From contig RDOA01000014.1 in assembly GCA_011364925.1 (NCBI GenBank), positions 1 to 64,000 on the forward strand: DNA of 64,000 bases. Reading direction: 5' to 3'. Of the stretch, positions 34,613-52,674 are shown piece by piece. Below the pieces are notes generated by a model. That model was not told the origin of the DNA. It saw only the letters and a program-made list of their open reading frames with translations, and did no database searches. The DNA is from Promethearchaeota archaeon. Lineage in GTDB: Archaea; Asgardarchaeota; Lokiarchaeia; Sigyniarchaeales; SOKP01. Position numbers and translations under genes: made by a program. Positions within the stretch are counted from its first letter, which is position 1; each line of letters starts with the position of its first letter.

Positions 34613-35341
34613 ATGACCTATAATATCATAGTAGATTTATCACATAAAGAAAAAGTCGAGGAATTTCCAGATTTTACTTTAGGGGATGACGATTTAGAAG
34701 TAGACTACATCGATAAGAATGAGGGGCCTATTGACTATGATTTACTTGAGGATTACGATATTTTATTCATTGGTAATATTCAACAAACTAAAGATGGCAA
34801 GGAAGACAAACTCACTAAAGACGAACTACTAGCAATCAAACGATACATTGGAGAAGGCGGAGGTCTCTTCCTAACCACTGGTGATGGAGGAGATAAAGAC
34901 ATTCCAATGAAATCAGGATCTATTAGAGTTCTTTATAAAATGACAGGAGTTAAAAGGTATTGGAATGGATTAATCCAAGAGGCTCCGTCACACTTTTTAG
35001 TAAATAAGCAAAATATTCTGATCACTGAGTTATTTAACCACCCTATTACCGAAAAAATTTCCGAAGTGGTTCTCCCTAACTGCACATTCTTTACTATTAC
35101 TGAAGAGGATGTTGAGGATATAATTGTAACTTCGGATAAAGCTGAATTCAAATATTTCATTGATGATGAGATAGGAGGAATTGGAACGGTTCCAGTTTGT
35201 GTTGTAAGCGAATTTTTTAGTGGAAGGTGCGTTACTATTGGCTCATCGGATTGGCTAATAGAAGATGAATTCGGTCTTGACGCTGGAGACAATATTTCTT
35301 TTCTTTCTAATATTATAAAATGGCTAAGTTTTGAAATATGA
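34613..35341 (+). CDS. GATase-like/GIFT (IFT52-GldG) fold protein
   Basis: A 242-aa soluble acidic protein. The core LLEDYDILFIGNIQ ... LTKDELLAIKRYIGEGGGLFLTTGDGGD ... is the alpha/beta pattern of the GIFT domain found in IFT52 and in GldG-type proteins: a strand, a short acidic linker, a helix that starts with a Thr/Ser-rich cap, a GGG turn, a strand ending in Gly-x-Gly-Gly, then HPIT and a final GSSDWL segment. No catalytic Cys/His pair of true amidotransferases is visible, which fits GIFT proteins. Role unknown; binding rather than catalysis is likely. The ATG start is clear but without a strong SD. The family call is pattern-based. Confidence 0.6.
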   Translation: MTYNIIVDLSHKEKVEEFPDFTLGDDDLEVDYIDKNEGPIDYDLLEDYDILFIGNIQQTKDGKEDKLTKDELLAIKRYIGEGGGLFLTTGDGGDKDIPMKSGSIRVLYKMTGVKRYWNGLIQEAPSHFLVNKQNILITELFNHPITEKISEVVLPNCTFFTITEEDVEDIIVTSDKAEFKYFIDDEIGGIGTVPVCVVSEFFSGRCVTIGSSDWLIEDEFGLDAGDNISFLSNIIKWLSFEI

Positions 35342-37771: not shown

Positions 37772-38554
37772 CTATTTCTTTATTTCGCTATATTTTTTCA
37801 TTATTAAATTACAAACACTCGAGATGGGATTGATTTTTTGTTTCCAGTTTGAAAATTCTGGAAATGTACCTGCATCCACCACATATAATTGATTAGTTTT
37901 ATTCTCTCTTACAAGATCTAAATGACCAAATGATAAATTATACTTATTTTTCCATTTTCTTAGATATTCTTCAATTTCTTCGTCAAATTCGATTTTTATC
38001 ATTTGACTATGCTCATTTGATAAAGGTTTTTTCTCACAAATACAGGAATTATCCCCTATAAAGTATGCTAAATAATGCACTCCATCAATATATTTTTCTA
38101 AATAGAGGGGTTCCTCGAAATCTTTATTAATATCTTTCGTGCTGTTAAGAATTCTAATATCATTACTACCTGATCCAAAAATTGGTTTAGAAATTAGGGG
38201 AAAATAGGAATTCTTGAGTAACTTTTTTAGAATTTTAAGATATCCCATATATACTTGAGGATATGCGAGGCCAGTATTTTTAATAGCATAATACGATTCA
38301 ATCCGATCTTTATGAGTATGACTTAGACTCGTATTTGGTATAACTGGAACCATATTTGCTTCTAAAAAATACCCAGCATAAAGATAAAGCATACGTTTTG
38401 ACTTCAGTATATAAAAATCGTTCTCTAAGAGTGAATCGTTTATACAAAGATTATCTGCCGTAAAAATTTTAACTTGATGGCCTATATTTTCGTAGTAATC
38501 CTTTATTTTCCAAGTGAAACCTCCAGTTCTTTTCGATAAAATCCCTATCTTCAT
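37772..38554 (-). CDS. ATP-grasp protein, RimK/ITPK-like (altered metal motif)
   Basis: A 260-aa member of the RimK/inositol-phosphate-kinase side of the ATP-grasp fold. SKPIFGSGSNDIRIL is the glycine-rich nucleotide loop, YLEKYIDGVHYLAYFIGD the adenine-binding strands. The metal strand reads Asp 213 ... VVDAGTFPEF, so the usual Asp-x-Asn has Gly 229 in place of Asn. That may weaken the second Mg site. It is the last of two co-directional ATP-grasp genes, 13 nt after its neighbour. Target unknown; amino-acid ligase, small-acid ligase or inositol-phosphate kinase are all possible. Confidence 0.7.
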   Translation of the reverse strand: MKIGILSKRTGGFTWKIKDYYENIGHQVKIFTADNLCINDSLLENDFYILKSKRMLYLYAGYFLEANMVPVIPNTSLSHTHKDRIESYYAIKNTGLAYPQVYMGYLKILKKLLKNSYFPLISKPIFGSGSNDIRILNSTKDINKDFEEPLYLEKYIDGVHYLAYFIGDNSCICEKKPLSNEHSQMIKIEFDEEIEEYLRKWKNKYNLSFGHLDLVRENKTNQLYVVDAGTFPEFSNWKQKINPISSVCNLIMKKYSEIKK

Positions 38555-38567
38555 TTCTTTATTAAAT

Positions 38568-39395
38568 TCAACCTTTAGCTTGTTTTATTAAGTAATCTAC
38601 TACATATTTTGGTCCATTCTTAATGTAATTAAAATTAGGTGAAGAATTTATATCAGATAAATAAAAGGCACCGTTTTCTAATTTTAGAAAATCCATGGAA
38701 CAAATTTGTAATCCAATTGCTTCTGCCGCTTTAAATGCAATTTCAGTCAATTCTGGAACATTTTCAATTTCTATCCTAGATTCCATCTTGTTAGGATTTA
38801 TTAACACAGGTACTTGTTTATAGTAAAATATGTCCTCACCGATAATGTATATCTTAAATTCCCATTTACTCCTCACAAAATCCTGAAAATATACATGTGA
38901 ATATTTAGGTTTAATGCCACTGGATTCATCAATAGCTCGCATATCACTAACTTCAAAAAACCCTTCCTTTTCTTTAATTTGAGGTTTGAAGGCATAATTT
39001 TTTTGATCAATGATATTTTTCATAATGTATTCCTTGTAAGGAGGAGAAGTCCCTATAGGATTTAATGTGAAACTGGGAATGCAAATACCCGCTTTTTTTA
39101 AATAAACACTATTCAAAAATCTATTAAACGCGAGCGAAATGCTTTTCGATGAATTAATAACAGGAATGTTAGTTTCTCTCTCGATTAATTTAACCAGACT
39201 TATAATCAAATCTCCTTTTGCTTTAACAAAAAATATGTTTTCATTAAATTCATAATGAGAGAAATCTATAAAGTATTCTTCTTCAAGATATATAGATACT
39301 TCTACTTTATTCTTGCAATAATCCAAAAATTGGGATGATTTCTTTTCCAAATGATAATTGTCAGTAATCAAACCAATTTTTATCAAATGACTCAC
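38568..39395 (-). CDS. ATP-grasp protein, RimK/ITPK-like
   Basis: A 275-aa ATP-grasp enzyme. The FKPQIKEKEGFFEVSD loop binds nucleotide, YFQDFVRSKWEFKIYIIGED supplies the hinge strands, and the metal strand is Asp 235 ... LSDINSSPNF with the classic Asp 248-Ile-Asn 250. It starts at GTG 39395, or possibly a few codons later (an ATA before KIGLITDN is also in frame). It is divergent from the ITPK-like gene at 39544 (148-nt shared region) and 13 nt upstream of the next ATP-grasp gene, a probable two-gene operon. Closer to RimK-type ligases than to ITPK by its SSPNF end. Confidence 0.72.
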   Translation of the reverse strand: MSHLIKIGLITDNYHLEKKSSQFLDYCKNKVEVSIYLEEEYFIDFSHYEFNENIFFVKAKGDLIISLVKLIERETNIPVINSSKSISLAFNRFLNSVYLKKAGICIPSFTLNPIGTSPPYKEYIMKNIIDQKNYAFKPQIKEKEGFFEVSDMRAIDESSGIKPKYSHVYFQDFVRSKWEFKIYIIGEDIFYYKQVPVLINPNKMESRIEIENVPELTEIAFKAAEAIGLQICSMDFLKLENGAFYLSDINSSPNFNYIKNGPKYVVDYLIKQAKG

Positions 39396-39543
39396 AATAT
39401 TCTAAGTTATTTGGGGAAAATTGAATATTTTGTATTAGTGATTAGTATAATTCTAATTTACATTAAAAGAATTGCGTGAATCAATAATTACATTTATATA
39501 TTTTAATTTGTTTTAAAGAAATCAAATTGATCGGGTTTTTTAA

Positions 39544-40455
39544 ATGGCGAATAATATAAAAAGAAAATATATCGGAGCCATTTGCAATAGGGATCTTGAA
39601 GTAATGGAAAATATCAAGAAGTTCCTTATCAAAAATTATAATATTACTATAGTAAATTTGATGAAAAATGGATTTGAATCGTTTAATGCTAAATATTTAG
39701 AAAAAAAAATGAAAAAGTATCCATTTTCTTTTTTAATCGTTAAACTTGTTTCTCAACAAGAAAATAAACGAATATATGATATTCTTGATGACCTTTGCCC
39801 AGATATTCCGATGCTGAATGATTTAGAGTCTGTTCAAATTTGTGAAAGTAGATTTGATACTTTTAAAAAAATTCAAAGTGTATATAAAAAAATTAGTATT
39901 CCACAATTATTTAATTCTAAAATTGATGCTTTAGAAGCATCTCGTAATGGTGTTGACATAATCGTTAAACTTGATACTCATAATATACCCGATCTTCCTA
40001 AAAACGATAGGATTATTGGAATTGCTAAAAGTCCTTCAGAGTTAAGCGATTTAATTAATAATCGGGACGAAAAGAACTTATTTTTTCAGGAATATTTAGG
40101 AGAGCATGATATTATATATAAGGTATATGTAGTAGGTAATTGGGTTATCTCAATCACAGCTCAGAATCGTTTACACCAACTTTCTGAATTATCACCATTA
40201 GATTTGATGCATATTCGAGTTCCAGTAGAGGAGAAATTTAAAAGGAGGATTATCCGTCTTGGTCGTAAACTTGGATTATCAGTTTTTGGCGTAGACTATA
40301 TTCTAACTGAAAATGGACCATATATAGTTGATATCAACGATTTCCCTAGTTTTAATAACATTCCTGAAGGTGTGAGCTTAGTCTCAGATTATATATATAA
40401 TCTAATTAGTATGAGAGAAGTTTATCAAAAAGCTTTCCTTAAAGTTAAGAGTTAA
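39544..40455 (+). CDS. ITPK-like ATP-grasp kinase/ligase
   Basis: A 303-aa protein. QEYLGEHDIIYKVYVVGNWV (Lys 193 to Gly 198 = KVYVVG) matches the strand pair that reads KVYVVG in eukaryotic inositol tetrakisphosphate 1-kinases. The metal strand FGVDYILTENGPYIVDINDFPSF, with Asp 251, Asp 263 and Asn 265, resembles the ITPK ending (Phe-Asp-Leu ... Val-Ile-Asp-Ile-Asn-x-Phe-Pro-Gly). Inositol-phosphate kinase activity is therefore plausible, but RimK-type ligases share most of these features. The gene is single on the plus strand, divergent from two relatives and tail-to-tail with the VOC gene. The inositol-phosphate synthase 3.4 kb away strengthens the idea. Confidence 0.72.
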   Translation: MANNIKRKYIGAICNRDLEVMENIKKFLIKNYNITIVNLMKNGFESFNAKYLEKKMKKYPFSFLIVKLVSQQENKRIYDILDDLCPDIPMLNDLESVQICESRFDTFKKIQSVYKKISIPQLFNSKIDALEASRNGVDIIVKLDTHNIPDLPKNDRIIGIAKSPSELSDLINNRDEKNLFFQEYLGEHDIIYKVYVVGNWVISITAQNRLHQLSELSPLDLMHIRVPVEEKFKRRIIRLGRKLGLSVFGVDYILTENGPYIVDINDFPSFNNIPEGVSLVSDYIYNLISMREVYQKAFLKVKS

Positions 40456-40459
40456 AAGT

Positions 40460-40903
40460 TTATTTTCTCTTTTTTTCTCTTTTCACCATCTCCAATAGTT
40501 CAATTACTGCCCCAAATACTTCCACAGTATCCATATAAGCATACTTCAATCTTGGTGGAAACAAGCCCGATTGTACAACCTCTATTCCTTCTTGTTGAAA
40601 TCTGTTAATATTTTTTTCCAAGTCCTCAACAAACACTCCAAAATGGTGGAGTCCCACTTTCTGACTGTCGACAAACTCTTTATATATAGAATCGCCTTTA
40701 AGCCATTGAAATATTTCTATCGATGTAGATAAGCATCGACTAACGCCCATCTTTATTGAAAATTTCGTTTCTCTGCCCCTATAAATAGCGGGATGATCTA
40801 AATCTTCAGAAAATTCAAATTTAGGCATGTTAAATAGGGATTCCATCCTTAATGCGTGTTTTTCCGGTTCTTGATATATATAACATATATGCTGAATCTT
40901 CAA
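40460..40903 (-). CDS. VOC/glyoxalase-fold protein
   Basis: A 147-aa single VOC domain pair of beta-alpha-beta-beta-beta units. KIQHICYIYQEPEKHA opens the first unit, and VGLHHFGVFVEDLEKNI opens the second, with the metal-type His. The final FGAVIELLEMV strand supplies the Glu. It resembles methylmalonyl-CoA epimerase or glyoxalase-like members, but no substrate can be named. It starts with TTG. Its stop lies 4 nt from that of the ITPK-like gene on the other strand. Confidence 0.75.
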   Translation of the reverse strand: MKIQHICYIYQEPEKHALRMESLFNMPKFEFSEDLDHPAIYRGRETKFSIKMGVSRCLSTSIEIFQWLKGDSIYKEFVDSQKVGLHHFGVFVEDLEKNINRFQQEGIEVVQSGLFPPRLKYAYMDTVEVFGAVIELLEMVKREKKRK

Positions 40904-41068
40904 GTTTGAAAAATCTACTTCTAAATTGGTTTCTATATTTTGTCCCCTCTACAAACAAATTAAAGTTTTTATGAAAATATTATATGTGTTTGAATTTAAA
41001 CCTATTAGAGAAATATTTTTCTTCCTCAAAATTTACATTCAAACCAAACAATATTTGAAATAAGTATC

Positions 41069-41593
41069 ATGGTACGCAGAATTGAAGTAGTTCCACACGA
41101 TCCAAATTGGAAAAATAAGTTTAATTTAGAAGCAAGAATTATCAGATCGATATTTAACAAGGAAATTATAGCGATTCACCATATAGGAAGCACTGCCATC
41201 CCGCAAATTAGTGCTAAACCTATTATTGATATTTTAGTTGAGGTACATGATATTGATAAAATAGATGATTACGATTTTAAAATGATTGAACAAGGATATA
41301 TTCCCAAAGGAGAGTCTGGTATTCCTAGAAGGAGACTTTTTATAAAAGGAAGCGAAGAAGTTAGAACATTTCACATCCATATCTTCGAGAAAGGGAATTC
41401 AGAAATAAAACGACTTTTAAATTTTAGAAACTATATGATCGCGCATCCTAACGAGGCACAGAAGTATAGTCGATTAAAAGAGAATCTTGTGCGAGAGTAT
41501 CCCGAAGATATTAGTGGCTATATAGATGGAAAAGATAAGTTCGTTAAAAATATTGATAAAAAAGCCAAAGATTGGAAAGAAAAGCTAAAATAG
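41069..41593 (+). CDS. GrpB family (UPF0157) nucleotidyltransferase-fold protein
   Basis: A 174-aa protein with the complete GrpB motif set: VVPHDPNWKNKF at the N-terminus and IHHIGSTAIPQISAKPIIDI, whose Gly-Ser and Asp-x-Asp-like positions match the nucleotidyltransferase active site, followed by RTFHIHIF. The biochemical role of stand-alone GrpB proteins is not settled. It ends 21 nt before the HAD hydrolase on the same strand, so the two are probably co-transcribed. Confidence 0.85.
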   Translation: MVRRIEVVPHDPNWKNKFNLEARIIRSIFNKEIIAIHHIGSTAIPQISAKPIIDILVEVHDIDKIDDYDFKMIEQGYIPKGESGIPRRRLFIKGSEEVRTFHIHIFEKGNSEIKRLLNFRNYMIAHPNEAQKYSRLKENLVREYPEDISGYIDGKDKFVKNIDKKAKDWKEKLK

Positions 41594-41614
41594 GTACAAA
41601 AAGAGACAGGTAAA

Positions 41615-42355
41615 ATGTCGTTTGCTATCTTTTTTGATGATGGGGGTGTACTTAATGATAATGATATACGTGGTCCCCAATGGAGTGCATTCTGTGGAGA
41701 ATTCTTTCATTCAAAGTTTGGAGGAGATCCGAAAGTATGGGGTGAAGCAAACCGTAAAATAACCACATCATTAGCAACTATTTTTTGGGGTGATACGAAA
41801 GTGATTTCTCAAGATTACATTACGTTTTACGCTAACTATAAGAGTGAGTGGGTAAAGCAGATGTTTGAAGAATATGGAAGATCTGTACCACCTGAAAAGG
41901 ATCGTGAAAGAATTTTCGATACTACGATAGAATATGTATGGCCAAAAATCCATTCGGCTATACCTGGAATCGTTGAGTGTGTTAAGGAACTCTTTTCAAA
42001 AGGTTTTCTTCTTTACACTTCTACTGGTTTGCATTCAAAAGAAATAAAGATGGTCCTCGAAGGGATGGGCATAAAGCAATTTTTTAGTGAGTTTTTTGGT
42101 CCAGATTTGATAAATACTCGAAAGCGAAATCCCAAATTCTTTGATCATATCTTCAAAAAGGTAAATATTGACTCAAGTAAAGTGATTGTTATTGAAGATA
42201 ACCCGGAATTTATTGGTTATGCTCTTAAAACAGGAGCTCAGGTAATTCAAGCATGTGTAACGGGGGAATATCCTCCTCAATTTCCTTTATATGTTGAAAA
42301 TATGCATGAACTTCCTAATATAATTGAAAATCTTATAAAAACGCACGATCTATAG
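41615..42355 (+). CDS. HAD-superfamily hydrolase
   Basis: A 246-aa phosphatase of the HAD subfamily I type with a helical cap. Motif I reads FFDDGGVLND (nucleophilic Asp followed by Asp-Gly-Gly-Val-Leu), motif II is the LYTSTG threonine/serine region, motif III the Lys in TRKRNPKFF, and motif IV the acidic IEDNPEF. Substrate is unknown. It lies in an operon with the GrpB-family gene, between the ITPK-like genes and the inositol-phosphate synthase, so a small phosphorylated metabolite such as inositol phosphate is one possibility (inference). Confidence 0.8.
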   Translation: MSFAIFFDDGGVLNDNDIRGPQWSAFCGEFFHSKFGGDPKVWGEANRKITTSLATIFWGDTKVISQDYITFYANYKSEWVKQMFEEYGRSVPPEKDRERIFDTTIEYVWPKIHSAIPGIVECVKELFSKGFLLYTSTGLHSKEIKMVLEGMGIKQFFSEFFGPDLINTRKRNPKFFDHIFKKVNIDSSKVIVIEDNPEFIGYALKTGAQVIQACVTGEYPPQFPLYVENMHELPNIIENLIKTHDL

Positions 42356-42491
42356 TTCTCACAATTTTTTGGTACTTCAAGCGACCTCTTACCTTACATT
42401 TTTAAACAGTTCCGAATTTTATTATTTTAATAATCAATCTTAAATGGTTCTAAATTTTATTATTATAATCGTATTTAGGGAGTCCATATTA

Positions 42492-43760
42492 ATGACAATA
42501 TCAAGTAAAATTGTACAGAACGAAAAAGTGCGAACTATAGTTAATAAGGATTACGAGGATAAAGAATTTCTAAATCTAATGAAAAACATCACAGCTGATT
42601 CCATTAATTCTAATGCCTATTACAAAGAACTCGCTGTTAAAAAAAACTATAATATTGATGATGTGAATCAAAGGGATGATTTAGCTCTAATACCGTATAT
42701 TACGGCATCTACTTTCAAAGAATCTGTGGGAATGTATAAGAAATTATTGAAAATTCCCTTAGAATCCCCTGAGTTTAATACTTGGAACGTGTCGTCTTGT
42801 ACAACTGGGGATCCCTCATTAGTAGGGAGATCTTCAGACGATTTAGATTTTTTAGCCAGTATGACCATAAAGTGCATTTATGAGTTCATCCCAATACCGG
42901 TGGAGGAACACAATCAATACGGGACTATCTCAATGAATTTTGCTCCTAATGTTAAGTTCTTAGATCGGATTGCGATGAGATACACTGAAATGAGACCAGT
43001 GAAATTATATACCAGCACATTGAACGATATTACTACTAGAATCACCAAACCAATGTATTTGATCAAGTTCTTTATCTTCAAAGCGTTAAAAGAGATAATC
43101 AAGAAACGTGGTTTAAGAGGTGCTTTCGGAATTAATGCTCAACATGTTATAAAAACAATTAACAACAACTCAAGGTTACCACCAGATGATCAAAAAAACA
43201 TTTCAATTGGGGGAAGCCTTCAATTATTAAACACATTTATGAATAAATATTTAAAAGAGGCAAACATAAAATTTGACTTACCAAACTGTTATATAACTAC
43301 TGGTGGTGGTGGATGGAGTGGACATAAATCTCAACTAAAATATCCTCCCATTGAGAAAAAACGGTTTGTTTCAGACTGTATTGAGTATTTTGGAACAAAA
43401 AGTGAAAATATTACTGATATGTATGGTTTTACAGAAACACCAATAGTATTTGGAAGTCATTGGTCAGAAAAGCATCAGGATTTTATATTTCACTGTCCAC
43501 CTCAAGCTAGAACTATAATTCGAGACATTAATAATCTAGAACCTCTAAAAAGTGCGGGAGACACGGGATTTTTGGAAGTTCTTACCCCTTTTGGTGTGTC
43601 TGCCTCAGTAAATCATGCTATTCTCGTTGATGACCTTGTACAACTTATTTCTAAGCATAAGTGTCTTGAATGTGGTTATGAAGGTTGTACTTTCATAGTT
43701 CAAGGAAGAATCAAAGACAAAACAGGACTAGGATGCTCCTCTCTCGTTGAATGGATCTAG
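42492..43760 (+). CDS. LuxE-like acyl-protein synthetase / phenylacetate-CoA-ligase-like adenylating enzyme
   Basis: About 422 aa. An ANL-type acyl-adenylating fold: the phosphate loop is SSCTTGDPS, the adenine/Mg motif DMYGFTETP, and the GDTGFLEVLTPFG ... ILVDDLVQL segment with GRIKDK is the C-terminal hinge. Closest in build to LuxE (acyl-protein synthetase of bacterial bioluminescence) and to short phenylacetate-CoA ligases. A CLECGYEGC pair of Cys may bind zinc. ATG 42492 is chosen because AGGGAGT stands 12 nt upstream; the longer frame adds a hydrophobic stretch. No LuxC-like reductase is nearby. The acyl substrate is unknown. Confidence 0.78.
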   Translation: MTISSKIVQNEKVRTIVNKDYEDKEFLNLMKNITADSINSNAYYKELAVKKNYNIDDVNQRDDLALIPYITASTFKESVGMYKKLLKIPLESPEFNTWNVSSCTTGDPSLVGRSSDDLDFLASMTIKCIYEFIPIPVEEHNQYGTISMNFAPNVKFLDRIAMRYTEMRPVKLYTSTLNDITTRITKPMYLIKFFIFKALKEIIKKRGLRGAFGINAQHVIKTINNNSRLPPDDQKNISIGGSLQLLNTFMNKYLKEANIKFDLPNCYITTGGGGWSGHKSQLKYPPIEKKRFVSDCIEYFGTKSENITDMYGFTETPIVFGSHWSEKHQDFIFHCPPQARTIIRDINNLEPLKSAGDTGFLEVLTPFGVSASVNHAILVDDLVQLISKHKCLECGYEGCTFIVQGRIKDKTGLGCSSLVEWI

Positions 43761-43831
43761 ATTATGTTAATATTTTTCTTTTATAAAAAAAGATTAATTT
43801 CGAACCATTGATTTTAAATCGGACTCAAGAT

Positions 43832-44923
43832 TTACCTTTCGCGTCTATTCTGTATGAACTTTATCAATCGTCTTTTTGCTATATTATCGTCCAATTGTTC
43901 GACAGGATGCTTATTAAAGAACGAGCAAGCAGAGTGTAATATCCCACCAATTTTGCGATCTCTAGCAATTTTGGAAATACGGACACAATCAGCTATAATT
44001 CCCGCTGAATTATTTCCATCTTCTACGAACATAGTAATATCAACTCTTACTGGAGCTCCTCCAAAAACCCTGCCTTCGAGTCTCATATACGCTTCTTTCT
44101 GATTCTTTAAAAACGGGATGTAATCAACAGCAGACACTTGACATTCCACATCCTCCTTATTTTGAAGATTAGCAACGACAGCTTCAGTTTTAGACTGTCG
44201 TTTTCCCTTTTCGTAAACCAAATTTCCATTAGGTTGAGGTGTTAATAAGTTACAAAAATCAGACGATCCACCCCAATCGAGTTGAATTGTGCGATCGAGA
44301 ATTGCCCCTCTCATAGGAAACAAATTTGTTAATGAGCGATGAATAATAGTTGCTCCGATTTGGGATTTTACATCGTCTCCTATCAAGGAAAGGTTTAACT
44401 CTTGAGCTTTTTTCACGATTTCTGCATCATGTACTACTGGAGAAGGCATACCATTAACGATACAAGCACCAGCATTAAGAGCAGCCATTGCATAGTATTT
44501 TACTGCCTGATGACATCCCGTCGGCAATAAAATAACGGCAACATCAACATTTTTACATCTCATTTCTTCGGTTACATCAGATACGAGCTGTTTTTCGTCA
44601 GTAGGAATTATATTTTTTATATTGCTATTTAAACCGTCCATTATCGGTCCTTTTAACACTGAAGCATTTAGGAGATTGGGTTCATATCTTTTCGTATTAC
44701 AATTTGGGCTAACAAAAATCGCTTCACTTAAATCTTTACCAACTTTATTCGAATTAACATCAAATCCTAAGACGAAATTAATATCATCAACCTGGTATTG
44801 AGTAATTTCCGGTAACAGACCGATGATATCGTTAGGATCTCTCTTATATTTTTCAACACCTTGAACTAAGGCGCTCGCAACATCTCCTATACCGATAAGA
44901 CAAGTGTTGATTTTATTCGCCAT
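43832..44923 (-). CDS. ino1: Myo-inositol-1-phosphate synthase, archaeal type
   Basis: A 363-aa enzyme that converts glucose-6-phosphate to 1L-myo-inositol-1-phosphate with bound NAD. The NAD motif GIGDVASALVQGV is at the N-terminus, and the catalytic half has GDDVKSQIGATI, LDWGGSSDF and the phosphate/Lys-rich region KGKRQSKTEA. The length is that of archaeal and bacterial MIPS, shorter than eukaryotic. Archaea use the product for archaetidylinositol lipids or compatible solutes. Here it lies within 8 kb of all four ITPK-like ATP-grasp genes. The ATG start is clear; the gene is convergent with the LuxE-like gene. Confidence 0.93.
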   Translation of the reverse strand: MANKINTCLIGIGDVASALVQGVEKYKRDPNDIIGLLPEITQYQVDDINFVLGFDVNSNKVGKDLSEAIFVSPNCNTKRYEPNLLNASVLKGPIMDGLNSNIKNIIPTDEKQLVSDVTEEMRCKNVDVAVILLPTGCHQAVKYYAMAALNAGACIVNGMPSPVVHDAEIVKKAQELNLSLIGDDVKSQIGATIIHRSLTNLFPMRGAILDRTIQLDWGGSSDFCNLLTPQPNGNLVYEKGKRQSKTEAVVANLQNKEDVECQVSAVDYIPFLKNQKEAYMRLEGRVFGGAPVRVDITMFVEDGNNSAGIIADCVRISKIARDRKIGGILHSACSFFNKHPVEQLDDNIAKRRLIKFIQNRRER

Positions 44924-45098
44924 GATAAATCATTTATTTTGATCGTATTAAAAACTTACAGAATGACCTAAAGTTAAAAATGCAATATATTAGCATTATG
45001 ACACATTTAATAATATTTTGAAAATGAAATCTCAAAGTTCTTAAATTTATTGATATTAATAGTTTCAATTTAAACCCATAAATTCGAGTTTAGAGCAA

Positions 45099-47936
45099 AT
45101 GGAAACATCAAAAAAGAAGATATATTTAGCGTTATCACCACATATTAATTATTATCATTCATATAGAGGCGATTCTAAAGGAGAAACGGGATTTGGTAAA
45201 GATCTCGCAATGATGAGGGGGATCATTGATGAGTTAGATAAAATTGAAGATATGGGATTAGGGTCGATAAAAATATCATGGGATTATGGTGATACCTTCT
45301 GGTCAATTCAGCTCCAAAAGGAGTTTCAACCAGATGTGCTTGACAGAGTCATAGAAAGGTGTAAAAAAGGTAAAGATGAGGTTTTAATTGGTTCTTGGGG
45401 AAATGTAATGCAACCTGTTATGGACACTGAAGAATTCTTGCAACAACACCAATGGTTTTTAGAGAATTCAATGGGTATAGGTGTCAATCAATTATTTCCC
45501 GGAAGAGTAGCTCCATACGCACGAACTCAAGAATCGATGTTTTCTCAAGGAATGATTGAGCTTTACAACGATATTGGTGTAAAAGGAATATGCAACTACT
45601 ATTCTGTTTATGGATTTGATGTAGCAAGACCCTTCCTCAATCCTCGATTAGATTGGAATCAAAGATACGGTTTGGTAAAATTTAAATCTACTTTGTCAGA
45701 CGCCTCGTGCTTAATGATACCCACGTACGGATTTGGGGACATTCTTGATTTTTGTTCAATGAAAAGATGGTTTAAAATTATAAGGGAAAAACAGTTAGGT
45801 GGAGAAATCAAAGGTCACGCTCTTCTTTTTCTAAACTTTGATATGGATTATGAAAATTGGCTTGGAATGAAGTTACCAAACTTTTTGAGCTGGCTACCGA
45901 ATTCTCGGGGTTTAATGGAATTTGCAGAGGTTGTAAATCAATTAGAATATGTCGAGTTTACCAACTTGTTGGAAATTGTACCTAAATTGGAGGTACATGG
46001 TGAGACAACTCTTAGAGAGGATGTTGCTGATGGGATGTGGAATGGATATTATAATTGGTCTCAAAAGTTTAACAACACGAGGTTTTGGACAGTAGGACAA
46101 CGGGCACGATGGTTGAAATGTATCTCAGATACATTTACTACTAAAAAAATTATCGAAAACTCTGCTTCGGATATTAATAAGTTAATAAGGGACAAAAGTG
46201 AATCTCCCGAGACTTATTTTAAAAATAAAATCCTACTTAATTCAACAACTAATTTTGGAATGGCTATGCCATTTCTTCACTCTGATAGGCGAAAAACAGC
46301 TATTAGTTATGCATTGAAAGCTTTTGATAGTTCTCAAAAAGCATTTGAGATAGTTTTGAAAGAATATTCAACTGAACTAGACAAAAATCTTAAAAAATAC
46401 GAAAATATGCTATTAATTTTACCTATAACTAAGAGAGGAGTATCTGAGAAGGAAACTATACCGTTAAATGATTATATATTAGCTCAATCGATACTACCCT
46501 CAAAAATTTGCGACTTAATAAAAGAAAATGATAAAAAAATTAGACTGCTGAACATTTCTTCAGAAAAAGCATTAATATCTTTCTCCATCTATAAAAAACG
46601 TGATGGAGATCGCTCAAATTTCTGGTTCGAAGCACTGATACCTCGATCAGATTTTAACTTCGATGACTCGAACAGTGCTGCCTATGCTTTAACGATTTTC
46701 GAATCAAATCAAGAACAAAGTAAATCAGAAGGAAATGAATTAACAGCAACGAAAAATTCATTAAAAAACAAATTTCTCTCATTAGAATTTAATGAACTTG
46801 GAAAGATAAATTCCTTTAAATATAACGACACTGAATTCGCATGTCCGAACTTTTTAGATTCATCGATAACCTACGGTAAAGCAAAGAATCCGAAATCGTA
46901 TTATTCAAATAAAGATGAAATCATTGTCCATCGAAAAGGTGACGATGGATTTTCTGCTTCAATTTCTATTACCAGCGAATTTCTTATAGAAAAAGAACAC
47001 AAAGTTCAAGTTGAAAAAGTGCTCAAGTTATATGCAGATTTACCATACTTATTCATATCTGTTACAATGAAAATACCCGACATTAGAGGTGAAACAACGA
47101 CTATTGGAAAAAGCGACGGAACTTCTTATTTTGTAGAGGAACAGTTTCAAGAAAAATGGCAAGAAATCATACCTTGTGAGATTAGATCAAACATTATCGG
47201 CTTAAATGAACCTCTAAAAATCTGGAAGCGTAATTTCTTAGGGGTTGTAGATCATTTTAATCTTGACATGAAAGAGGTTGATCCTAAAAACGCTAATATA
47301 GATTGTTTAGTAGCAAATATATCAGATGGATGGATGGCTCTATCAAATGAAGAAAAAGGAATACTCGTTGGTTTTAATTCACTGAAAGCCTCAAATTTTG
47401 CATTTTCCCCGATTAAAATAAGAGATAAAGGTTTTGGAGATCTTGCGATTAAAGGTCAACAAGTAAGAATTAATCCGTTTGGAACATATTATGGAAAATT
47501 GCTTCATTACTGGTCGGAAGGAAACGCTCACGCACAAAAGATTGTTTCCAAGTTAATTGGTACCAATGAATCTACAGCTGCGACATTCAGTGGTAAGAAT
47601 GTTTCGTTTGATTTACTAATATCTCCTTACTTAGCGAATTCCCCTCCTGAACCTGTTAGAAATTTTGCAGATCATTACTCTTTCGAACCATTAGTCTTAT
47701 TCAAACAAAAGGAAGAAAGTCAAATCTGCTCTAATCACGCTCCTTATGTCAAAGAGAAAGAGAAGATGATTGAAGAATTTGGGGTCGAAGATGTAATGAA
47801 AATGACTTATATTGAATGGGTGAAAAAAGTAAATGAGGGATATAAACCCTCTGAGTCAAGATCCAGTGGAGGATTACCGAATATATCGATTGTTAACATG
47901 ATAAGAGTTTTAATTGATGGGATAAAAGGAAGGTAA
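45099..47936 (+). CDS. GH38/GH57-type glycoside hydrolase (alpha-mannosidase-like)
   Basis: A 945-aa protein. The N-terminal barrel begins YLALSPHINYYHSYRG and continues with ISWDYGDTFW, a GSWGNVMQPVMDTEEF strand and LFPGRVAPYARTQES, the layout of the (beta/alpha)7 barrel shared by GH38 and GH57. A helical region around 330-450 and C-terminal beta-sandwiches (about 520-905) match GH38 alpha-mannosidases. The usual His-x-Asp pair near the N-terminus is not clear. No signal peptide is present. It is 30 nt upstream of a medium-chain dehydrogenase on the same strand, a likely operon. The exact glycan is unknown. Confidence 0.65.
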   Translation: METSKKKIYLALSPHINYYHSYRGDSKGETGFGKDLAMMRGIIDELDKIEDMGLGSIKISWDYGDTFWSIQLQKEFQPDVLDRVIERCKKGKDEVLIGSWGNVMQPVMDTEEFLQQHQWFLENSMGIGVNQLFPGRVAPYARTQESMFSQGMIELYNDIGVKGICNYYSVYGFDVARPFLNPRLDWNQRYGLVKFKSTLSDASCLMIPTYGFGDILDFCSMKRWFKIIREKQLGGEIKGHALLFLNFDMDYENWLGMKLPNFLSWLPNSRGLMEFAEVVNQLEYVEFTNLLEIVPKLEVHGETTLREDVADGMWNGYYNWSQKFNNTRFWTVGQRARWLKCISDTFTTKKIIENSASDINKLIRDKSESPETYFKNKILLNSTTNFGMAMPFLHSDRRKTAISYALKAFDSSQKAFEIVLKEYSTELDKNLKKYENMLLILPITKRGVSEKETIPLNDYILAQSILPSKICDLIKENDKKIRLLNISSEKALISFSIYKKRDGDRSNFWFEALIPRSDFNFDDSNSAAYALTIFESNQEQSKSEGNELTATKNSLKNKFLSLEFNELGKINSFKYNDTEFACPNFLDSSITYGKAKNPKSYYSNKDEIIVHRKGDDGFSASISITSEFLIEKEHKVQVEKVLKLYADLPYLFISVTMKIPDIRGETTTIGKSDGTSYFVEEQFQEKWQEIIPCEIRSNIIGLNEPLKIWKRNFLGVVDHFNLDMKEVDPKNANIDCLVANISDGWMALSNEEKGILVGFNSLKASNFAFSPIKIRDKGFGDLAIKGQQVRINPFGTYYGKLLHYWSEGNAHAQKIVSKLIGTNESTAATFSGKNVSFDLLISPYLANSPPEPVRNFADHYSFEPLVLFKQKEESQICSNHAPYVKEKEKMIEEFGVEDVMKMTYIEWVKKVNEGYKPSESRSSGGLPNISIVNMIRVLIDGIKGR

Positions 47937-47966
47937 TATAAAAGGCGATCTTGTGTGAAAGAAAAA

Positions 47967-48968
47967 ATGAGAGCGTTATTATTTCCCGAACCATGGGTTG
48001 TGAAAATAATTAATATAGAAATCCCAAAACCAAAACCCAACGAGATTTTGGCTCAAATGATATCGGTTGGCATCTGTGGTAGTGATGTAGGAATTTTTGA
48101 GGGTGAACATTGGATAGTTGCTAACGAACCAGGAGGACATGGACACGAAACGGGTGCAATTGCGGTTGAAGTGGGAAGTGAAGTAGAGGGAATATCTATA
48201 GGAGATCATTTAGCCCGGATGGGACAAGGATATGCAGAGTATTCCACTCATGTAAATGTGATTGGACATGGTAAGGATGAATTCATTGGGGCTTTACCTA
48301 TTGTGAGAAATGATCTCTCCATGGACGAAATCTCTTTTGCAGACGCTGTAGGTTGCGCGATTAATTGTTATGAAAGAGCTGAATTTGAGAGAATAGAAGG
48401 CGAGAAGAAGGCTATTGTTCTAGGTCTTGGACCCATAGGACTTATTCTTACTCAAATTTTGCTAAAAAATGGGATTGAAGTTGCAACATCCGAACCATAT
48501 CATCATAAAAGAGATCTGGCAGAAAAATGGGGTGCTAAAGTATTTAATCCTAATGATTTTAGTCGAGTGACTCATGGAAAAGAGACTGTAGCTGATGAGA
48601 TTAAAAAAAGTTTTGGTGAGGCTCAAGCGGTTTTTGAGATGGTGGGTCTTAATGAAACTCTCCTAAATGCTATAGATTTGGTTAAATCTGGATTTCGAGT
48701 AATGGTATTTGGCGCTCAAAAAATGCAACAAGTGCCATATGTTAACTGTAGAAGGAAAGGTGTAGAACTAGTTTATCCCGAAGCAATGGTAAACTCGAAG
48801 ATAGATAAAGATTACTGGAACGATGCTTTAAACTTAATTGCAAGCAAAAAACTTGATTTAAATAGCCTTATTTCAGACAGAATAACCTTAGAACAAGCAG
48901 TTGATGCATTCAAATACTATGATCGGGAAAAATGGATAAAAATAATTGTAGAACCTCAAAAAAAGTAA
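47967..48968 (+). CDS. Zinc-dependent medium-chain dehydrogenase (sorbitol/threonine/glucose dehydrogenase-like)
   Basis: About 333 aa. The GroES-like domain contains ISVGICGSDVGIFEGEHW, with the catalytic-zinc Cys and GHGHETG His-Glu. The Rossmann motif is VLGLGPIGL. The structural-zinc four-Cys lobe is absent. ATG 47967 (MRALLFPEP) is preferred over GTG 47955. It probably oxidises a sugar or polyol released by the adjacent GH38/57-like hydrolase; that link is context only. It ends 23 nt before the convergent MFS gene. Confidence 0.85.
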   Translation: MRALLFPEPWVVKIINIEIPKPKPNEILAQMISVGICGSDVGIFEGEHWIVANEPGGHGHETGAIAVEVGSEVEGISIGDHLARMGQGYAEYSTHVNVIGHGKDEFIGALPIVRNDLSMDEISFADAVGCAINCYERAEFERIEGEKKAIVLGLGPIGLILTQILLKNGIEVATSEPYHHKRDLAEKWGAKVFNPNDFSRVTHGKETVADEIKKSFGEAQAVFEMVGLNETLLNAIDLVKSGFRVMVFGAQKMQQVPYVNCRRKGVELVYPEAMVNSKIDKDYWNDALNLIASKKLDLNSLISDRITLEQAVDAFKYYDREKWIKIIVEPQKK

Positions 48969-48991
48969 ATAAAATTATTATCAATTAATAA

Positions 48992-50266
48992 TTAATACTC
49001 TAACTTTAAAGTCTCCTTTACTTTCATAAATATCGGAATTGAACCGATAAAAAAGAAGGGTCCTAAAAGAAATATCCATTGAATTCCAAATAGAGTTGCT
49101 ACTATCCCTCCTGCGATGGAACCAATAATTTGAGAGGCAGTATTAACTATGTTTAATATTCCTGTAAATTTACCACGCTTTTCTTCAGGTAACAAATCTT
49201 GTGACCAAGCATTAAATGGCGTCATCATCGATAATAATCCTACTAATACAAAAGGTAATCCAATCATAAATAGAATAAAGTTTCCCAAAGCAAACGGCAT
49301 TATAGAAAATCCTATACTAATTAAAATAATTACCAGAGGAATGTATTTTTTTCTACCAAATTGATCTGATAATTTACCTAATGATATCGTCGCTACGAAT
49401 ACAACTGGAAATGCGACGCCTATTCCTAATAAGAGTTGCCATATTTCTAATCCTTGCCGTTGGATGAAGATCATTAGAAAAGGCATTATCGAACCAATCC
49501 CCGATTGGAAAATTACTAATGCTAAAAGAATCTTGAAGAATTCTTTTTGAGATTTCAACTCTTTCAAATTAAAAGTTTGCCTTATTTCATCGAGAAACCT
49601 TTTCTTCTCTGGAAATTCTGAAATCGGTCTTTCTCTTATGAATGTAAAACCTAAAGTACCAACTGACAAAAATACAAATCCTCCAATAAAAAAGATGAAA
49701 ATATGACCCTGTTGACTTATAATTATGTTGTTAATATCCCGAGGATCATTGACCCCAAATATTTGACTTCCGAGCATAAAAAACGCAACACCGACTATTA
49801 AACCTATATAGCTAATTGAGTTTACTATTCCATTTGCCCTACCTCTTTTTTCAACCTCAAATGTATCGGGGATAAGAGATCTTTCAGCAACGAGAAACGC
49901 ATTGGAAGCTATTCCGATAATCACCACATCGATTATTAAACATAGAATATAATTCCCGGAAAAACCAAAAAAGATCATTGCTATACCAGCAATCGTTCCA
50001 CCAAATAATAAATACGGTCTTCTACGCCCAAATCTAGTTCTCGTATTATCACTTATAATACCCCATACAATCATGATTATAAGTCCCATCGCAGCTGATA
50101 AAGAGACCATCAATGAGATGTATAGTTCTGGTAAAAAAAGGACATCATACAAGTACGTATTAAAAAAATTTTGTTCAAAAAAAAAGAAAAGATAATCTCC
50201 CAAATATAGTAAACCAATAAAGAATATCTGTCTTCGAAGAAATTTGCTAAATGTTTTTTCATTCAT
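48992..50266 (-). CDS. MFS transporter, GPH/sugar type
   Basis: A 424-aa protein with about twelve transmembrane segments. IISDNTRTRFGRRRPYLLFG between helices 2 and 3 is the typical MFS/GPH/SLC45-like signature, repeated as KLSDQFGRKKY in the second half. It is convergent with the medium-chain dehydrogenase and divergent from the fourth ITPK-like gene (106 nt between). It likely imports the sugar substrate of the adjacent hydrolase and dehydrogenase, by context. The ATG is clear. Confidence 0.85.
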   Translation of the reverse strand: MNEKTFSKFLRRQIFFIGLLYLGDYLFFFFEQNFFNTYLYDVLFLPELYISLMVSLSAAMGLIIMIVWGIISDNTRTRFGRRRPYLLFGGTIAGIAMIFFGFSGNYILCLIIDVVIIGIASNAFLVAERSLIPDTFEVEKRGRANGIVNSISYIGLIVGVAFFMLGSQIFGVNDPRDINNIIISQQGHIFIFFIGGFVFLSVGTLGFTFIRERPISEFPEKKRFLDEIRQTFNLKELKSQKEFFKILLALVIFQSGIGSIMPFLMIFIQRQGLEIWQLLLGIGVAFPVVFVATISLGKLSDQFGRKKYIPLVIILISIGFSIMPFALGNFILFMIGLPFVLVGLLSMMTPFNAWSQDLLPEEKRGKFTGILNIVNTASQIIGSIAGGIVATLFGIQWIFLLGPFFFIGSIPIFMKVKETLKLEY

Positions 50267-50372
50267 TTTGAAATTCTAACGCTTTAATTATATTTTTAAA
50301 ATGTAAAATGAAAAACAAAGTAAGTATTGAAGGAAAATTTAAGAATATTCTGCGCTTCTTTAAAGTTAATTT

Positions 50373-51266
50373 ATGATAAGAAATGTCGTTTTTTCAGCAA
50401 GGGAGGATCATGATGTAGTGAAAGGCGTGATAAATAGGCTTAAGAAATTACCTAATATTAATTTGCATTTTCATGACCCCACAAAACAGTTTTTTAATCT
50501 TTCTAGAATGCCTAAATCAATTAAAGAAGCTGATTTAATAATTGTTAAGGTGAGAAACGATTGTTCGATCGATTTATTACATTATGCGAAAACAAATCAT
50601 ATTCCTACGCTACATAGTATAGATACAGTGCTTATGTGTAAGAATAAAATATCCCTTGACTATGCTCTTAGAAAAGTGTTATCAACTTATCCTACAATTA
50701 GAAAAAAGTTTTCATTTCCTAACTCTTGGAATAATAACATTACAGATGTTAATGTTTTTAAAAAATGGGCTTCTAATAAACTTCCAATTGTAATTAAAAG
50801 CCATTACCAACACGACAAGTATAATAGATTCAACTTTCTGGTCAGAAAGATTGAAGAGATTGATACATTTTGCGAGAGATATAAACATCTTTTATATTAC
50901 GATGTATACATACAAAAATTTATCGAGTGTGATGGTTTTGAAAGAAAAGTTTATGTGATAGGAGAAAAAGTTTATGGAATCATCCGAGAAAATCCGATTT
51001 ACATATTTTTGCGAGACAAACCTAACCAGATTAATGTAGATGATATTAAAAGAAAGGAATTTAAGATATCTGATGAAATTAGAGAGTTAGCTGAACTTTT
51101 GGCTCATGAGCTTAAACTTAAAATATTCGGTTTCGATTTAGTAAAACCTGTAGATAAGGATCGTTATTATCTAATTGATTTAAACGATTTCCCTGGATTT
51201 AGAGGAATAAAGAATGTAGAAGATCAAATAACTAATTGTTTGCTTGATGTTATTAGCAACTTGTAG
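50373..51266 (+). CDS. ITPK-like ATP-grasp kinase
   Basis: A 297-aa protein and the best ITPK match of the four. IQKFIECDGFERKVYVIGEKV (KVYVIG at 192-197) corresponds to the KVYVVG strand of inositol tetrakisphosphate 1-kinases. IFGFDLVKPVDKDRYYLI ... DFPGFRGI, with Asp 255, Asp 269 and Asn 271, parallels the ITPK end Phe-Asp-Leu-Ile ... Asp-Ile-Asn-x-Phe-Pro-Gly. The N-terminal 100 residues form a Rossmann-like pre-ATP-grasp domain with HSIDTVLMCKNKISLDYAL. Separated by 10 kb from its three relatives, but on the same side of the inositol-phosphate synthase as the sugar genes. RimK-type ligase remains the alternative. Confidence 0.75.
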   Translation: MIRNVVFSAREDHDVVKGVINRLKKLPNINLHFHDPTKQFFNLSRMPKSIKEADLIIVKVRNDCSIDLLHYAKTNHIPTLHSIDTVLMCKNKISLDYALRKVLSTYPTIRKKFSFPNSWNNNITDVNVFKKWASNKLPIVIKSHYQHDKYNRFNFLVRKIEEIDTFCERYKHLLYYDVYIQKFIECDGFERKVYVIGEKVYGIIRENPIYIFLRDKPNQINVDDIKRKEFKISDEIRELAELLAHELKLKIFGFDLVKPVDKDRYYLIDLNDFPGFRGIKNVEDQITNCLLDVISNL

Positions 51267-51269
51267 AGC

Positions 51270-52124
51270 TTATCCCACGATCATAAAAGGTACAATTATT
51301 ATGAATGATATTATTCCATATAAGATACAGAAATAGCTAAAATTAACCTTTTGAGCAACCTTTAATAAAACTTTCATCGAGAGGTATCCTACTATGAAAC
51401 TAATTATAGTAATAGTTAGTATTGTAATTATATCAAGGGTACCAAAGACAGAACCTTCTCCAAATAATATGTCAACTCCAATAGAAGCGATTACAACGGG
51501 AACAGACATGAGAAAACTCAATTTCAAGCTTTGATTTTGTTCATATTTCTCGAATAAAATTGTAGACACAGTGAAACCAGAGCGCGAAATTCCTGGGAGT
51601 ATGGCAATCCCTTGGATCAGTCCACTTATACTCGAATCCTTTATAATTTCTTTAGATGACGTTGTATCAACAGTCTTTTTACCAAATGTTCGCTTAAAAA
51701 TCAATAGCGCAATTCCGGTTACAATTAACAAACCAGAAATCACCAAAGTTAATACGTCGCCATTAGTTGCATTAAAACCTTCTATTATGACAACTTTAAA
51801 CAAAAAATACAGTGGTATCGCAGTTATTGCGGTTCCAAGCGTAGCAAAAATTAACCAATTTCTTTTCTTAATATCGCTTTCGTTAACTTCAAACTTTTTT
51901 GGAATAAAAGATTTAATGATTTGAATATAATCTTTTCTTAATTTGATCAAAACAGCTAATGAAGTCCCTAAATGAACCCAAATACTTAAACTAAAAGCTT
52001 CATTAGGAGGGATTCCAAATAAGCTTGTTGAAACAATCATAACCTGCCCTGAGGAAGATATTGGCAGCCACTCAAATAATCCTTGTAATATTGCTATAAT
52101 TATATATTCAATCAATTTTATCAC
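51270..52124 (-). CDS. uppP: Undecaprenyl/polyprenyl-diphosphate phosphatase
   Basis: A 284-aa membrane phosphatase of the BacA type with about eight transmembrane segments. Active-site motif 1 is LPISSSGQVMI with the preceding GLFEWLP, and motif 2 is LPGISRSGFTVS with the key Arg. Recycles polyprenyl diphosphate to the monophosphate lipid carrier used for N-glycosylation and other glycan export. It starts with GTG and overlaps the stop of the upstream phosphatase gene by 4 nt, so translation is probably coupled. Its end is 3 nt from the ITPK-like gene on the opposite strand. Confidence 0.9.
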   Translation of the reverse strand: MIKLIEYIIIAILQGLFEWLPISSSGQVMIVSTSLFGIPPNEAFSLSIWVHLGTSLAVLIKLRKDYIQIIKSFIPKKFEVNESDIKKRNWLIFATLGTAITAIPLYFLFKVVIIEGFNATNGDVLTLVISGLLIVTGIALLIFKRTFGKKTVDTTSSKEIIKDSSISGLIQGIAILPGISRSGFTVSTILFEKYEQNQSLKLSFLMSVPVVIASIGVDILFGEGSVFGTLDIITILTITIISFIVGYLSMKVLLKVAQKVNFSYFCILYGIISFIIIVPFMIVG

Positions 52125-52591
52125 TCAAATCTTTTAAGTCCCTTTTCTATACAATATTTTATTTCATTACGTGTTTTACGGAAACCATCAAACCCTTTCA
52201 TTGACGGGTCTTCAATATCTCCGCTTTCTCCAGCAAATTCTCTTAAAGTAAAAACCTTAATATGGTTTAAAGTAATGTACCTTAGGACTTCTTTTTTGTG
52301 GTCTTCAGTAAGGGTAAGAATTAAATCCGCTTTCTTAATTAATTCCGGTCTTTTTTTAAGGTCAATTGAAACTGAATCGTTGGGCAAATTTATATCAACT
52401 TCGTTCATAACTAACTTAGCATCTTGAGATATAAGCATACCATCTCTGGCATTCGAAGCTATTCCTCCAGAAGTAACCTCAACATTCATTTTATTTTTTT
52501 TAAAGTAATCCTTTAAAAAACCAACAGTCATTGGGCTTCTTGCAGTGTTAACACTACAAACAACTAAAATGTTTGTATAAGGAAAACTCAT
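52121..52591 (-). CDS. Low-molecular-weight protein tyrosine phosphatase family protein
   Basis: About 156 aa. The P-loop CSVNTARS (C-x5-R, Cys 12 and Arg 18 from ATG 52591) and the C-terminal general-acid segment EDPSMKGF are present. The second P-loop Cys of typical LMW-PTPs is replaced (T-A before Arg). Could dephosphorylate Tyr/Arg phosphoproteins or act as an arsenate reductase. ATG 52591 fits the usual start (PYTNILVVCS); the longer frame to 52642 adds a hydrophobic leader. It overlaps uppP by 4 nt, so a role linked to lipid-carrier or glycan control is conceivable. Confidence 0.82.
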   Translation of the reverse strand: MSFPYTNILVVCSVNTARSPMTVGFLKDYFKKNKMNVEVTSGGIASNARDGMLISQDAKLVMNEVDINLPNDSVSIDLKKRPELIKKADLILTLTEDHKKEVLRYITLNHIKVFTLREFAGESGDIEDPSMKGFDGFRKTRNEIKYCIEKGLKRFE

Positions 52592-52674
52592 TAATATAGT
52601 GATAAATATTTTTTCTAAAATATTTATTATGGATTTAGCCATAAAATTTGAAAGGACATTAATGTTTCCTTATG

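Follow-up and report, generated by a model that had tools for sequence, protein, structure and literature searches.

Does a lokiarchaeon make inositol polyphosphates? These compounds are commonly regarded as a eukaryotic invention, and Lokiarchaea are close archaeal relatives of eukaryotes. The question is raised by a locus of a Promethearchaeota archaeon (Lokiarchaeia; assembly GCA_011364925.1, contig RDOA01000014.1) in which four ATP-grasp genes (AG1 to AG4) lie around a gene for an inositol-phosphate synthase (Ino1). The window is the whole stretch of DNA that was analyzed (64,000 nt, positions 1 to 64,000 of the contig). A sequence-only reading of it had taken all four ATP-grasp genes as candidate kinases of the inositol tetrakisphosphate 1-kinase (ITPK) type, and every open reading frame that it named was confirmed at the same start. 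Our preferred reading, to which we give a probability of roughly 0.66, is that Ino1 and AG1 to AG4 form a conserved cassette, with AG3 and AG4 belonging to the ITPK family, and that this cassette leads from glucose-6-phosphate through D-myo-inositol 3-phosphate, Ins(3)P, to higher soluble inositol phosphates. The five genes are as follows.

37772-38554, minus strand: AG1, ATP-grasp protein of 260 aa, distantly related to ITPK/RimK-type enzymes
38568-39395, minus strand: AG2, ATP-grasp protein of 275 aa, weakly similar to both RimK/ArgX and ITPK
39544-40455, plus strand: AG3, predicted ITPK-family ATP-grasp kinase of 303 aa
43832-44923, minus strand: Ino1, myo-inositol-3-phosphate synthase of 363 aa, clade-specific orthologue
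50373-51266, plus strand: AG4, predicted ITPK-family ATP-grasp kinase of 297 aa, with the widest conservation of the five

AG3 and AG4 matched the Pfam model Ins134_P3_kin (PF05770) with 36.3 and 44.9 bits, respectively (curated cut-off, 23 bits). The same model was matched by 15/15 AG3 and 25/25 AG4 relatives (E < 0.01) and by no protein of 14 control genomes. The ITPK-like motifs previously quoted for the two proteins were present (KVYVVG...DINDFPSF in AG3, KVYVIG...DLNDFPGF in AG4), and the Pfam scores exceed chance. When profiles were compared with the whole PDB, ITPKs ranked first for both AG4 (1e-11; RimK, 5e-3) and AG3 (8e-6; RimK, 1e-2). Trees were built with a comparison set of four E. 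coli proteins (RimK, GshB, DdlB, and PurT), ArgX, and RimK-type proteins from Asgard archaea; the set had no authentic CofF or MptN. ITPK1 of human, maize, and potato entered the trees as the sequences of PDB chains. AG3, AG4, and the eukaryotic ITPKs (human and plant ITPK1) formed one group with support of 99.8/100 (Shimodaira-Hasegawa-like approximate likelihood ratio test, SH-aLRT/bootstrap; LG+F+R4), which was weaker under the C20 mixture (83/51, bootstrap/SH-aLRT). Forcing AG3 and AG4 together with RimK/ArgX was rejected (approximately unbiased test, AU, p=0.0046), so the four proteins did not all fall inside the RimK/ArgX clade. On these profile and tree comparisons, we assign AG3 and AG4 to the ITPK family, as archaeal members, and not to the RimK type.

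A viral collection searched with the AG4 profile and a plant ITPK fragment gave no relatives, and a plasmid search gave a single weak match, a Nocardia ATP-grasp protein. An ITPK-like protein was seen in another Asgard family, adjoining ribosomal protein genes (L075:9068-9901, genome G085). It carries HsITPK1 K59, H167, K199, R212, D295, N297, and G301 and joined eukaryotic ITPK in one tree (99.9/100), not in wider trees; its branch is long.

The residues compared were K59, K157, H162, H167, K199, R212, D281, D295, N297, and G301 (HsITPK1 numbering). Among known ITPKs, H167, K199, and R212 are highly conserved, and K18, K59, H162, and G301 less so (PMC12077091). The counterparts of K59, K157, K199, D281, D295, and N297 were invariant in AG3 and AG4; AG4 additionally had H162 and R212, with G301 in 19/25 members. 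AG2 retained K59, K199, D295, and N297, with Asn at the position of G301. AG1 retained K59 and D295; N297 was replaced by Gly in 14/14 members (Gly229 in the window protein), and the window protein has Leu at the position of K199. LysX/ArgX and the other RimK-type proteins share the fold and differ in having Arg at the position of K199, Glu at that of D295, and an extra loop past the metal site. The Arg of the RimK 'DIR' motif was Lys in AG2 to AG4, and the metal-binding Glu was Asp in AG1 to AG4, as in ITPK. AG3 and AG4 had neither the 'DIR' Arg nor the E-x-N motif of the RimK/LysX/ArgX/CofF proteins and lay outside the RimK clade. They share with ITPK1 (inositol 1,3,4-trisphosphate 5/6-kinase, PF05770; human, maize, potato, Entamoeba) the ATP-grasp fold, the KVYV(V/I)G strand, and the C-terminal metal site D-x-N-x-F-P-[GS]-[FY]; identity by fold alignment was approximately 17-19%, and, in contrast to ITPK1, the archaeal genes cluster with ino1.

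Ino1 matched Pfam Inos-1-P_synth (E=1e-20) and, over nearly its full length, M. tuberculosis Ino1 (PDB 1gr0, 256 bits). The catalytic residues of 1gr0, which we take to be Lys284, Asp310, and Lys346, were conserved in the alignment. By domain and full-length match, the cassette protein is a myo-inositol-3-phosphate synthase. It is a distinct form, 72-84% identical among cassette genomes and about 40-43% identical to ordinary Asgard Ino1. Ino1 of any kind was found in 214/228 Asgard genomes, and in the genome of the window the cassette copy was the only one detected. Two further ino1 loci were observed: three tandem ino1-like genes (L077:11981-15456, genome G109), 31, 38, and 76% identical to the window Ino1, and an 81% identical cassette-Ino1 fragment in a distant Asgard family (G034:C458:7067-7891), possibly a bin contamination.

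Conservation of the ino1 linkage had been set beforehand as a test, and the linkage proved to be conserved. Every long cassette locus had the order AG1 (-), AG2 (-), AG3 (+), Ino1 (-), AG4 (+). AG3 and the clade-specific Ino1 were both present in 42 genomes and shared one contig in 41; they were tail-to-tail in 41/41 of these, with a spacing of 23-110 bp in 39. AG4 was usually followed by genes for a BacA/UppP protein (-) and a low-molecular-weight phosphatase (-). An insertion of 3.4-3.9 kb between AG3 and Ino1 was found in the genome of the window and one relative only. The neighbors in the window are listed below.

40460-43760: glyoxalase-like, GrpB-like, HAD, and LuxE-like genes, insertion separating AG3 from Ino1, outside the module
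41615-42355, plus strand: HAD phosphatase, within the AG3-Ino1 insertion
51270-52124, minus strand: BacA/UppP-type undecaprenyl-diphosphatase, convergent with AG4, neighborhood conserved
52121-52642, minus strand: low-molecular-weight phosphatase (LMWPc), neighbor conserved across loci

The glyoxalase, GrpB, HAD, and LuxE genes were considered local because 39 of the 41 genomes have 23-110 bp at that place and thus no room for them, and they were rejected as module members. The HAD phosphatase that had been included in the module is therefore present, but in the local insertion and not in the conserved cluster. The stretch from Ino1 to AG4 varies in its genes for a GH38-like protein, an alcohol dehydrogenase, and an MFS protein, and these were not counted as core. 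Elsewhere, an AG2-like/AG3-like pair with the same divergent arrangement and no Ino1 nearby was seen in a different family (L076:8703-10374, genome G085). In a distant Asgard lineage, an ATP-grasp gene directly adjoins an ino1 (L081:9572-11603, genome G067); its protein is truly RimK-type, and the gene was rejected as support for the linkage.

ITPK model matches were found in 56/228 Asgard genomes, all but two from one family. AG4 was present in nearly every genus of this main family. In three genera (g2, g4, and g9) it was at or near the same site, following the FKBP gene; AG1, AG2, AG3, and the clade-specific Ino1 were all absent from the loci examined there, and AG1, AG3, and the clade-specific Ino1 were not found in the genomes of these genera. 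AG1, AG2, AG3, and Ino1 were thus gained or lost as one block, and sister genera keep AG4 alone. Two sister-family genomes (G086 and G087; L072 and L073) also carried ITPK-like genes, and no Ino1 was detected in either.

Formation of D-myo-inositol 3-phosphate from glucose-6-phosphate by the Ino1 family is established, and the cassette Ino1 would catalyze this first step. AG4 and AG3 would then transfer ATP gamma-phosphates stepwise to the remaining hydroxyls of Ins(3)P, and AG2 and AG1 perhaps also phosphorylate inositol phosphate. Ins(3)P was proposed as the substrate of AG4 and AG3 because mammalian and plant ITPK1 phosphorylate it (PMC7356102). The outcome would be soluble inositol polyphosphates made without phospholipase C. 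We infer this substrate and step order, an end product between InsP3 and InsP6, and the activity of AG1 and AG2; the product may serve as a phosphate or metal buffer or as a regulator, and the signaling role that the sequence-only reading gave the module is conjectural. A search for SPX domains was uninformative, as the controls gave no match at all. It is doubtful that the cassette is the whole route from glucose-6-phosphate to InsP5/InsP6 or a pyrophosphate, with the four paralogues acting at different positions and independently of lipids and IPK-type kinases; the genome of the window had no match to the IPK-type kinase model (PF03770).

Several observations weigh against the proposed pathway. 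HsITPK1 H167 had no clear match in AG3 or AG4, R212 was absent from AG3, and the similarity to PDB entries was mostly limited to the C-terminal half. Structure modeling gave a confident model of AG4 (predicted local distance difference test, pLDDT, 92.1), the best PDB match of which, in favor of an ITPK, was maize ITPK1 (ZmITPK1, 3e-16), but ArgX scored nearly alike (6e-16), and PPIP5K and RimK were also listed. Because of these near-equal scores, the fold supports the superfamily without deciding between ITPK and ArgX. Also in favor, a comparison of the AG4 model with predicted structures of viral proteins ranked an ITPK of Hokovirus first, ahead of the next match by four orders of magnitude; the AG3 model (pLDDT 52.8) was too poor for use. 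The flanking genes are also syntenic in the main family, so that adjacency by itself argues weakly; the functional link to Ino1 rests on the presence or absence of the block, the gain and loss of which is the better argument. Finally, Ino1 may well feed lipid head groups in parallel, because it seems to be the sole Ino1 of a genome with six CDP-alcohol phosphotransferase matches.

AG1 matched Pfam ATP-grasp_3, as did 14/14 of its relatives, and its Ins134_P3_kin match (22.2 bits) was just below the cut-off, with 3/14 relatives matching that model. AG2 had a weak match to Pfam RimK, which was found in 9/14 relatives (Ins134_P3_kin, 2/14). ArgX ranked first in the PDB for both AG1 (4e-7) and AG2 (5e-4), and forcing AG1 and AG2 together with RimK/ArgX was not rejected (AU test, p=0.35). 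Thus, the claim of four ITPK-type kinases held for the genes at 39544 and 50373, for which Pfam, PDB profiles, tree, and AU test agreed, but was not borne out for those at 37772 and 38568, whose relatives mostly gave no Ins134_P3_kin match. The results for AG1 and AG2 favor the view that all four proteins are ligases of the RimK/LysX/CofF type, which link a small molecule or a protein with amino acids, and that Ino1 is a bystander; so do the closeness of the AG1 and AG2 profiles to ArgX/LysX among solved structures and the true RimK-type gene beside another ino1 in the distant Asgard genome. We consider this view very unlikely, given the rejected grouping of AG3 and AG4 with RimK/ArgX, the replacement of the 'DIR' Arg in AG2 to AG4 and of the Glu in all four proteins, and the PDB lists of AG3 and AG4, which are headed by ITPKs and not by RimK.

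A division of labor is tentatively possible, in which AG3 and AG4 are inositol-phosphate kinases, whereas AG1 and AG2, as ligases or as regulators without activity, add another group to the inositol phosphate or regulate it; this view is compatible with the preferred pathway and differs from it on AG1 and AG2 only. These two were not firmly placed in the trees, and AG1 combines the loss of the metal/inositol-phosphate Asn and of the K199 Lys with a ligase-like glycine-rich loop (KPxxGSGS) and an ArgX-like PEF motif. However, the AG profiles align mutually over most of their length, the K59-type Lys (Lys51 in AG1) and the Asp replacing the RimK Glu are common to the AGs, and AG1 to AG3 are gained and lost together with Ino1. 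AG2 has a set in common with ITPK (K58, K181, Asp248/Asn250). We describe AG1 and AG2 as relatives of AG3 and AG4 whose placement by sequence between ITPK and RimK-type proteins is ambiguous. It is also conceivable, though unlikely, that the cassette modifies lipid-bound inositol (an archaetidylinositol head group) or an osmolyte and not free inositol phosphates. In other archaea the Ino1 product goes into archaetidylinositol (PMC9385802), the genome of the window has one inositol monophosphatase in addition to its CDP-alcohol phosphotransferase matches, and the conserved neighbor of AG4 is the BacA/UppP gene. Nevertheless, neither a lipid kinase gene nor a gene for a CDP-alcohol phosphotransferase was recognized inside the conserved module, and known ITPKs use soluble inositol phosphates.

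According to PMC7356102, PMC8024741, and PMC10897400, four ITPK1 homologues were reported from Lokiarchaeum by Desfougeres et al. (2019, PNAS). On that description they resemble AG1 to AG4 in lineage, number, and ATP-grasp domain and are probably their orthologues, and lokiarchaeal ITPK homologues are therefore not new. The present data go beyond them in the cassette and its conservation over 40+ genomes, the co-inheritance by block gain and loss, the restricted distribution, and the lower standing of AG1 and AG2, which are weakly placed. No mention of ITPK homologues clustering with an inositol synthase was found in the open literature, in which the 2019 study was represented by the papers citing it. 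If the proposed pathway is true, a soluble, lipid-free inositol-phosphate route predates or parallels the origin of eukaryotes. The coupling of inositol synthesis to ITPK-type kinases makes the route testable through expression of five genes, and the gain and loss of the AG1-AG2-AG3-Ino1 block narrows the choice of genes for joint expression.

Two other genes of the window were observed. A 945-aa protein (45099-47936), judged by eye to be GH38-like (alpha-mannosidase-type), matched no glycosidase model of Pfam; the gene, beside that for the alcohol dehydrogenase, is present in some loci but not in others. A conserved Asgard protein (34613-35341) had a weak, sub-cut-off match to the GIFT domain of IFT52, a protein of eukaryotic intraflagellar transport, and its gene adjoins a proteasome subunit gene.

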